A stretch of 36,315 nucleotides of DNA from Akkermansiaceae bacterium (GTDB lineage: Bacteria > Verrucomicrobiota > Verrucomicrobiia > Verrucomicrobiales > Akkermansiaceae), in the NCBI GenBank assembly GCA_903906515.1, contig CAIVKO010000126.1, positions 1-36,315 of the forward strand. Reading direction: 5' to 3'. This document shows positions 24,694 to 26,074 of this stretch, piece after piece. The notes beneath the pieces are model-generated. The model was not told the DNA's origin. It searched no databases and saw only the letters and a program-made list of their open reading frames with translations. The position numbers were made by a program, and so were the translations under genes. Within the stretch, counting starts at the first letter, position 1. Each line of letters opens with the position of its first letter.

Positions 24694-25545
24694 ATGAGCG
24701 AAAACGACAATCTGCCACCTTCTCCGTCCAAGCAAACGTCCAGCGTGCCTCTGAAAAAGGAAACGATCCGAGTCACTTTGAGCGACAGTGTGCCGGTTGC
24801 TGCGTCCAAACAAACGTCCAGTGTGCCTCTGAAAAAGGAAACGATCCGAGTCACTCTCAAGGCCGCAGACGCACCGCCCGCAGTTCCATCCGCCACTGTA
24901 TCTTTGGCTCCTCCGGCGCGTCCGCCTATGCCTAGTGGAGCGCCGCCCACACCCACCGCCCTCGCGACCGCTCCTCCCCGCCCCACGACTCCCGCGCCAA
25001 CGATTCCGTTGCGCGCTACGCCGACCACGCCTGCGCCGACGATTCCATTACGCACGGCCGGTGCTACGCCAACCACACCTGCGCCAACGATTCCATTACG
25101 CACGGCTGGTGCCACGCCAACCACGCCCGCGCCGACGATTCCATTGCGCACCAGTGGCGCGCCTACATCTCCGTCGCCCGTGCCGACGATCCGTCTTGCG
25201 ACTTCCAAAGGTCCAGTTACACCCGGCCCGACACCGACATCCCCGCTCGTGGCTCCCGGTCAAGCCACAGTAGGCGGTGCCCCGACACTGCCGAAAGCGA
25301 CCGTCCAGCTTCAGGCACCCACCCAACCGCTGGGCTCCTCCTTTCCAACCGGTGGATCATCGGCAACTTTCCAAATCGAGGAAGAAGAAGAGCAAGAGGC
25401 CCATGCTACTTTGTATAAAGTCCTTTCTGGAGTCGGATTTGCCGCCGCCCTTGTGGTGTTGGTTTTCCAACTCATGATCGCCAAGACTTGGATCGAGGTG
25501 GCAGACAATCCCAAAGTCGGCGATTGGATGCAGCTTTTCGAATAA
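24694..25545 (+). CDS. Pro/Thr-rich tandem-repeat membrane protein
   Basis: A 283-residue protein from ATG 24694 (the frame is open to an upstream TTG, which lies in the promoter-like box). It opens with two near-identical copies of an 18-residue motif, SKQTSSVPLKKETIRVTL (24727-24780 and 24805-24858). A Pro/Thr/Ala-rich stretch follows, with tandem 16-residue units of type TPTTPAPTIPLRTAGA (25018-25161, three full copies with partial ones on either side). Short cores of the form T-[IV]-x-L recur along the chain ('ATVSL', 'PTIPL', 'PTIRL', 'ATVQL'). After an acidic 'EEEEEQEAH' comes one membrane helix (about 250-266, VGFAAALVVLVFQLMIA) and a short tail. No signal peptide is seen, so the repeat arm should be cytoplasmic. 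The family is unknown to me. Confidence 0.8.
   Translation: MSENDNLPPSPSKQTSSVPLKKETIRVTLSDSVPVAASKQTSSVPLKKETIRVTLKAADAPPAVPSATVSLAPPARPPMPSGAPPTPTALATAPPRPTTPAPTIPLRATPTTPAPTIPLRTAGATPTTPAPTIPLRTAGATPTTPAPTIPLRTSGAPTSPSPVPTIRLATSKGPVTPGPTPTSPLVAPGQATVGGAPTLPKATVQLQAPTQPLGSSFPTGGSSATFQIEEEEEQEAHATLYKVLSGVGFAAALVVLVFQLMIAKTWIEVADNPKVGDWMQLFE
24982..25161 (+). repeat. 48-bp coding tandem repeat
   Basis: Three consecutive 48-bp units start at 25018, 25066 and 25114, each coding for TPTTPAPTIPLR plus a TAGA/TSGA linker. A partial unit (PTTPAPTIPLRA) lies directly upstream from about 24982. The units are nearly identical in DNA, differing mainly at third codon positions, which indicates recent expansion or repeat homogenisation inside the gene. 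Confidence 0.85.
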
Positions 25546-25571: not shown

Positions 25572-25652
25572 ATGGCATTACCTATCCTCAACGCTCTGTT
25601 GGCTGGCGCAGTCCTTTATCTGGCATATATTACCGGAGCCCTTCCCATATAG
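25572..25652 (+). CDS. Possible 26-residue hydrophobic peptide
   Basis: A 26-codon open frame (ATG 25572, TAG 25650) lies 26 bp after the tandem-repeat protein's stop. The product is almost wholly hydrophobic, MALPILNALLAG at its start and VLYLAYITGALPI at its end, and could span the membrane once. No Shine-Dalgarno site is seen, but that is true of nearly all genes here. The position between a TM-anchored protein and a stem-loop that looks like a terminator makes a small membrane partner plausible. Coding status is unproven. Confidence 0.4.
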   Translation: MALPILNALLAGAVLYLAYITGALPI

Positions 25653-25753: not shown

Positions 25754-26074
25754 ATGTCATTGAAACTTACCGACACCAATTTCCAATCCGAAGTGATCGA
25801 CTCCAATGTGCCAGTCCTCGTGGACTTCTGGGCCGAATGGTGCGGCCCCTGCAAAATGCTCGGCCCTGTGCTCGACCAACTCTCCACCGAGCTCGAAGGC
25901 CAGGCTAAGGTCGGTAAGGTCAATGTCGACGAAGCCCGCGAACTTGCCGTGAAATACAGCGTGCGCTCGATCCCCTATCTCCTGTTCTTCAAGAACGGCG
26001 AGGTGAAGGACCAGATCGTCGGAGCCAACGTCACCAAGGACCAACTCAAGGCGAAGCTGCTCGCGCTCGCCTGA
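25754..26074 (+). CDS. trxA: Thioredoxin
   Basis: A 106-residue thioredoxin of standard length. 'VLVDFWAEWCGPCKMLGPVL' contains the redox-active WCGPC (30-34), the buried Asp is in 'VDFWA', and the cis-proline loop reads 'RSIPYLLFF' (Pro76 region). The fold ends with 'GANVTKDQLKAKLLAL'. There is no signal peptide, so it is a cytoplasmic disulfide reductase. The gene is followed by uup after 10 bp and probably shares its transcript. Confidence 0.97.
   Translation: MSLKLTDTNFQSEVIDSNVPVLVDFWAEWCGPCKMLGPVLDQLSTELEGQAKVGKVNVDEARELAVKYSVRSIPYLLFFKNGEVKDQIVGANVTKDQLKAKLLALA

Follow-up and report, generated by a model that had tools for sequence, protein, structure and literature searches.

ORF X, which lies in a 36,315-nucleotide stretch of Akkermansiaceae DNA (the whole of which is referred to here as the window), encodes what appears to be a tail-anchored, intrinsically disordered membrane scaffold with recurrent Thr-centered cores of the form T-Phi-x-Phi. 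On the basis of sequence comparisons, we tentatively suggest, at a probability a little short of even, that X may be a membrane-anchored array of phosphorylated Thr residues (pThr) read by FHA proteins. The architecture of the protein, the specific retention of Thr, the occurrence of cores only where FHA domains were found and the synteny of the locus are all shown by computation.

Architecture of the Protein

The reading frame of X is open from its ATG to its TAA codon (Table 1), and its start codon is backed by relatives, in which the corresponding sequence is MS[ED]N. A preliminary description of this DNA had reported two near-identical 18-residue motifs, tandem 16-residue Pro/Thr units, recurrent T-[IV]-x-L cores and an acidic patch followed by one C-terminal helix, and all of these elements were recovered. 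The two copies of the 18-mer are identical at 18 of 18 residues, with DNA that is 88% identical over 73 nt, and the four base differences between the 54-nt motif copies are, by reading of the sequence, all synonymous. The 48-bp array consists of 2.9 copies with an 89% match. The arm (240 residues) contains nine T-[IV]-x-[LIV] cores, when 0.56 would be expected, and none of 2000 shuffles reached this number; the equivalent motif beginning with Ser, Ser-[IV]-x-[LIV], occurs three times in the window protein (0.3 expected).

An AlphaFold2 model of X, built with 10 aligned sequences, has no secondary structure over residues 1–234, which are followed by the long helix listed in Table 1 and by a short helix at residues 278–282; its mean pLDDT of 51.7 is as expected of a disordered protein. 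Tail-anchored bacterial proteins have a single C-terminal helix, a short tail and no signal peptide. X resembles them in these traits, being predicted to possess one hydrophobic C-terminal helix and no N-terminal hydrophobic segment, but it matched no family over the curated cut-off in Pfam-A or NCBIfam, and three distant relatives gave nothing over the cut-off in Pfam. The window protein contains no Cys residue, and 27 of the 32 genus proteins considered below also lack Cys. Scans for promoters (0 sites, with 0.4 expected) and for terminators (2, with 1.5 expected) gave results at chance level, and an Rfam search returned no match.

Table 1. Features of ORF X and of the adjoining DNA (positions in the window).
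Feature	Position	Strand	Remarks
ORF X	24694..25545	+	283 aa; P/T-rich disordered arm bearing T-Phi-x-Phi cores; acidic patch; membrane helix at the C terminus
18-mer SKQTSSVPLKKETIRVTL, first copy	24727..24780	+	extra tandem copy, 1/32 genus proteins
18-mer, second copy	24805..24858	+	aligns with the family core; in 30/32 genus proteins
48-bp tandem repeat encoding 16-residue ATPTTPAPTIPLRTAG units	25015..25151	+	
LPKATVQLQ conserved core	25288..25314	+	pN/pS 0.16
Acidic patch EEEEEQE	25378..25398	+	
Predicted helix, residues 235-271, with membrane anchor	25396..25506	+	AlphaFold2; hydropathy consistent with a membrane anchor
Micro-ORF MALPILNALLAGAVLYLAYITGALPI	25572..25652	+	recurring single-helix membrane peptide of ~26 residues
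trxA (thioredoxin)	25754..26074	+	syntenic neighbor

Distribution of the Family

An absence of homologues sharing the motif would have told against the preliminary description, but such homologues exist. A full-length search with X gave a match in 34 of 37 same-genus genomes (its own included) and in 40 of 59 relatives overall, and ten named loci belong to records that carry the title Luteolibacter, Akkermansia, Akkermansiaceae or Verrucomicrobiaceae, or to similar metagenome bins. The N-terminal core, T-[ST]-x-[VI]-P-L-[KR]-K-E-T-V-R-[IV]-[TS]-L, recurs, slightly varied, in further families of the order. With a 32-residue core as the query, 29 of 387 genomes of the phylum were matched, and inspection of the translations revealed an X-like ORF in 23 of them (two truncated where a contig ends); the other six matches, all short (three in group g18, the others in G365, G342 and G417), appeared fortuitous. 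Homology over the whole protein understates the extent of the family, as the full-length query missed family f4, which the 32-residue core recovered. Elsewhere in the window's own genome this core was not found, the two copies in X being followed by a match of 14 bits. No description of the X family was found in the open-licence PMC literature.

Conservation and Selection Within the Genus

Selection was assessed in every same-genus genome that has a complete ORF (32 in all), regardless of the core (G018 and G022, the ORFs of which are cut by contig ends, were excluded). An earlier set of 32 proteins, picked by a pattern that required the core, had given a biased core pN/pS of 0.04, which was not used; this ratio rises to 0.18 in the unbiased set because two proteins (L022 and L023) lack the N-terminal core. 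These two retain many PT[IV]PLRPAG units, and 30 of the 32 proteins carry KKET[IV]R[IV]TL. Values of pN/pS are lowest for LPKATVQLQ (0.16) and the core (0.18) and higher for the arm (0.42) and for the anchor and tail (0.52), in an alignment in which synonymous differences, at about 0.7 per site, are near saturation. A repeat region that is not translated would also have told against the preliminary description, but the region evolves in this alignment as translated protein.

In the five Thr columns that precede [IVL]-x-[LIV], Thr occupies 155 of 157 cells and Ser none; in the other Thr columns of the alignment, 212 of 280 cells hold Thr and 18 hold Ser. The motif T-[IV]-x-[LIV] occurs 179 times in the 32 proteins (8.7 expected) and Ser-[IV]-x-[LIV] 36 times (6.0 expected), most of the latter being attributable, by eye, to SVPL within the 18-mer. 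Versions beginning with Ala or Pro are depleted in the 32 proteins, and are not enriched in 33 trx-linked arms either.

The repeat pair noted in the preliminary description is real in X, but only one of the 32 genus proteins has the 18-mer exactly doubled in tandem. Another member of the genus (L042) has two diverged copies lying far apart, and a protein from another genus (L072) has three; the number of copies therefore differs between proteins, whereas the cores persist, and the doubling of the 18-mer represents a local expansion. The number of PT[IVM]x[LI] units ranges from 0 to 5 over the 32 proteins of the core-requiring set.

Association With trxA

The preliminary description, sound in its account of the repeat arm, missed both the linkage of X to trxA and the micro-ORF that lies between them. 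Of the 30 same-genus loci L002–L031, 28 have a trx gene next to X. In a wider survey anchored on trxA, close matches were present in 157 of 288 genomes of the phylum, and 60 loci were spread by hand over the families, although 13 of the 60 belong to one genus, g18. An ORF located at most 200 nt upstream of trxA and encoding a P/T/A/S-rich arm and one C-terminal helix was found at 33 of these 60 loci (13 of the 33 in g18), versus 4 of 623 control ORFs from the same loci; within the window, X is the only one of 120 ORFs to pass the arm-plus-helix test. Most trxA loci of family f9 have no such ORF, and in family f4 X is positioned elsewhere than at the best trx match. The trxA-linked ORFs are alike in architecture, in place and, partly, in their cores (of the KTIRLKRP, KSDTSRIPL or TIPL type), and a common ancestry for all of them, while conceivable, cannot be shown by alignment. 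Linkage to trxA goes with the arm-plus-anchor architecture rather than with the cores, because coreless arms keep it. What characterizes the family as a whole is the T-Phi-x-Phi cores together with the tail anchor and, over much of the sample, a location before trxA.

Variants of this arrangement were also observed. At L141, the ORF upstream of trx encodes a distant, 601-residue arm in which several repeats of the SDQTMEIDPEAL type make up a different T-Phi-x-Phi array. In group g18 (L085–L097), the membrane helix is often followed by a long Ser/Asp/Glu-rich tail that is absent from the window protein. A coupling of X to proS, by which a Pro-rich protein would lie beside the gene for prolyl-tRNA synthetase, was considered and set aside, proS being present at 17 of 30 genus loci in flanks of 1.5 kb, some of them shorter.

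Kinases and FHA Proteins

Published FHA ligands carry I/V or D at pT+3 (pTxxD or pTxxI/V; PMC6468809). In X, Thr residues followed at +3 by a hydrophobic residue lie within disordered sequence, as in the pTxx[ILV] class; the residue at the core columns is Thr and not Ser, and a separate Ser core (SVPL) sits in the 18-mer. The window genome has 11 kinase matches and two FHA matches, and a kinase was found in all 51 genomes examined; the presence of kinase and FHA genes in the same genome is weak evidence, as both are common. In one of the two FHA proteins of the window genome, a MoxR-like AAA domain is fused to the FHA domain. The second combines an FHA domain with a charged linker and a hydrophobic helix at its C terminus, and its gene (L146, 2398–3342, on contig C18) lies between ParB-like and carboxypeptidase-like genes, named from reading of the sequence. 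Neither gene adjoins X. Of 36 same-genus genomes, 31 gave a match to this tail-anchored protein or, at a minimum, to its FHA domain, and in G004, G082 and G091 the single FHA protein examined likewise ends in a C-terminal helix. Such a reader is not universal: one FHA ORF examined in G223 lacks this helix and looks to be fused to a cyclase-like domain.

The association between cores and FHA domains was assessed with a relaxed rule applied to 118 trx loci, which gave 77 X calls; two were dropped as false (L117, a ScpA-like frame, and L125) and 75 were retained. An FHA match was present in all 52 genomes with core-bearing arms (at least one T-[IV]-x-[LIV]). Coreless arms occurred in 23 genomes, 19 of them without an FHA match and four with one (G135, G185, G220 and G232), a missing match here referring to the sequence searched, with further genes possibly lying in the remaining stretches. 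The 41 trx loci without an X call included 26 with FHA in the genome. In a second batch of loci, fetched after the pattern had been seen, 28 of 28 core-bearing genomes had an FHA match and five of six coreless ones did not. On a thioredoxin tree obtained by quick search, the core state changes four times and the FHA state five times, yielding two independent pairs for the contrast on supported branches and four on all branches; in random pairings, FHA went in the same direction in 1.7 of 2 pairs and never in the opposite direction, with a median p of 0.5. The core–FHA association is clumped by kinship, and a sign test cannot reach significance; Fisher values, which take no account of kinship, were disregarded.

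At a local scale, the contrast is clearest in family f10, in which G223 has cores and FHA, whereas in G071 the core has decayed (KKETVRPLPPL) and FHA went unmatched. Of the loci L101 and L102, from two genomes of a single family, the former has a shortened X with a decayed core and no FHA match in its genome and the latter an intact X and two FHA matches. G170 has four cores and no FHA match in the part of the genome searched.

Residue Preferences at the Cores

The 33 trx-linked arms contain T-[IV]-x-[LIV] 60 times (5.2 expected). Position-specific counts were obtained from the 52 core-bearing arms, which had been selected for the presence of at least one core. Position 0 is occupied by Thr 162 times (20.9 expected), by Ser 16 times (18.3 expected), by Val eight times (13.8 expected) and never by Ile (11.9 expected), and Arg is enriched 8.6-fold at this position, by eye as an effect of overlap (T-V-R-I). 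At position +3, Leu is enriched 13-fold and Ile eightfold.

Proposed Mechanism and Alternatives

The arm of X probably faces the cytoplasm, because the protein has no signal sequence and its anchor is C-terminal. Hanks-type kinases would phosphorylate the Thr of the T-[IV]-x-[LIV] cores (KETIRV, PTIPL, PTIRL and KATVQL), FHA domains would bind the pThr-x-x-[LIV] ligands of X, and FHA proteins would be gathered at the membrane in a multivalent and tunable manner. The best candidate for a reader in the genus is the small FHA protein encoded beside the parB-like gene on contig C18, which has its own C-terminal membrane helix; in this genus the reader is perhaps itself tail-anchored. The preliminary description had proposed a multivalent scaffold or a phosphorylated Thr array, a proposal that may hold in part: Thr without Ser at the core columns, hydrophobic residues at +1 and +3, the presence of kinases alongside FHA domains in these genomes and the kinship-clumped co-occurrence of cores and FHA all point toward it, but the doubled 18-mer is only local. 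The clumping of the FHA association by kinship, the four coreless genomes with FHA, the 26 FHA-bearing genomes among the loci without an X call, the commonness of FHA and kinase genes, the distance of both FHA genes of the window genome from X, the enrichment of Ser cores and the loss of the core in L022 and L023 weigh against a pThr array, which we would put at slightly less than an even chance.

The core pattern also suits binding by non-phosphorylated beta-strands. X might thus be a membrane-bound scaffold in which the T-Phi-x-Phi cores add as strands, independently of phosphorylation, to a dedicated partner or to each other; we consider this rather unlikely, although hydrophobic residues alternate in TVRITL, TIPL and TIRLKR, Ser cores (SVPL) are enriched in the genus too, and the confinement of the 32-residue core to a single protein in the genome suggests a dedicated partner. 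If simple strand propensity were at work, the Thr at position 0 could be swapped for Val or Ile, which are depleted there, or for Ser, which is absent at the core columns, and strand addition leaves the FHA association unexplained, though kinship alone may account for the latter. The location of an X-like ORF within 200 nt upstream of trxA at more than half of the surveyed loci, and of a trx gene beside X at nearly all of those in the genus, favors a non-covalent tether, by which X would bring TrxA to the membrane, near putative DsbD-like clients. This is an improbable function: the conserved Cys of a redox partner is missing from the window protein and from most genus proteins, and, because X has no Cys, it can be no ordinary disulfide substrate of TrxA and a disulfide link is unlikely; furthermore, the X of family f4 is not at the best trx match.

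TonB and TolA are anchored at the N terminus. A translocated arm spanning the periplasm as these proteins do would be consistent with the extended, Pro-rich nature of the arm and with the acidic residues flanking the helix on the arm side, but X has neither an N-terminal hydrophobic signal nor an N-terminal anchor, its only long helix being C-terminal, and a periplasmic stalk is very unlikely. The notion that the arm is merely unconstrained sequence shaped by repeat slippage is harder still to credit for the protein as a whole. The exact 18-mer duplication and the 48-bp tandem units do look recent, the PT[IVM]x[LI] units vary in number and two genomes have lost the N-terminal core, yet the pN/pS ratios of the core and of LPKATVQLQ are well below that of the arm, the core columns are almost invariably Thr, and the core is recognizable in other families of the order. 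Drift is, thus, largely refuted for the cores and plausible for the number of repeats.

The pThr-array reading could be extended to a hub spread through Verrucomicrobiota and allied classes, in which a trxA-linked, tail-anchored pThr array would be read, in the window's family, by another tail-anchored protein of the same membrane that has an FHA domain, the membrane peptide of ~26 residues would be a third subunit, and cores and FHA would have been lost together in some lineages; we regard this fuller scheme as unlikely. If true, it would define a widespread signaling hub for Ser/Thr kinases that is named by neither Pfam nor NCBIfam, the code of which (T-Phi-x-Phi) is simple and for which there are a candidate reader and a recurrent link to thioredoxin, and it would provide the kinases and FHA proteins of the phylum with a defined target. 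In the open-licence PMC literature, no paper was found on such a substrate for these kinases and FHA proteins. The principle by which X would work has precedents; what would be new is the protein itself, how broadly it occurs and its partnership with an FHA protein that is tail-anchored too.

Comparison With Known Systems

In mycobacteria, the membrane protein MviN reportedly offers a pThr to the FHA protein FhaA in envelope biology. MviN is polytopic and has a pseudokinase domain, whereas X would be a disordered protein with a single helix. The nearest membrane case is that of TssL and Fha in the type VI secretion system of Agrobacterium, in which the N-terminal Thr 14 (DLPpTVVEI) of TssL, a protein of an inner-membrane complex, is a target of the Ser/Thr kinase PpkA and, when phosphorylated, a ligand of an FHA domain (PMC3953482). 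Like X as proposed here, TssL presents pThr at the membrane to an FHA domain, but it is a secretion component with one Thr site and Glu at +3, whereas X has a disordered arm with several cores and a hydrophobic residue at +3. Short Thr motifs in disordered N-terminal tails are also bound by FHA domains in DgcB, GarA and OdhI, the +3 residue of DgcB being Val (PMC6733907). Ligand and FHA domain belong to the same protein in these three cases, whereas X has no FHA domain and several motifs.

A Micro-ORF Between X and trxA

A micro-ORF of 19–28 residues with one hydrophobic stretch follows X at 29 of 32 loci, a count made with a start pattern, [PGTS]I[ILV][NTS], that was derived from the genus data, so that the conservation is partly by construction. 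Its pN/pS ratio of 0.53 is a weak sign of constraint. Comparable peptides follow X in other families (L047–L051, L069, L071 and L073–L075), and none was found after X in L046, L058, L061, L072 and L082. The possibility that the micro-ORF is generally a copy of the X anchor was rejected, as only 10 of 41 pairs beat shuffles (p<0.05) and its own anchor was no closer to it than the anchors of other species (0.53). At L049 (3318–3530), the micro-ORF is a near copy of the anchor of its own X (22 of 26 residues), with many synonymous differences.
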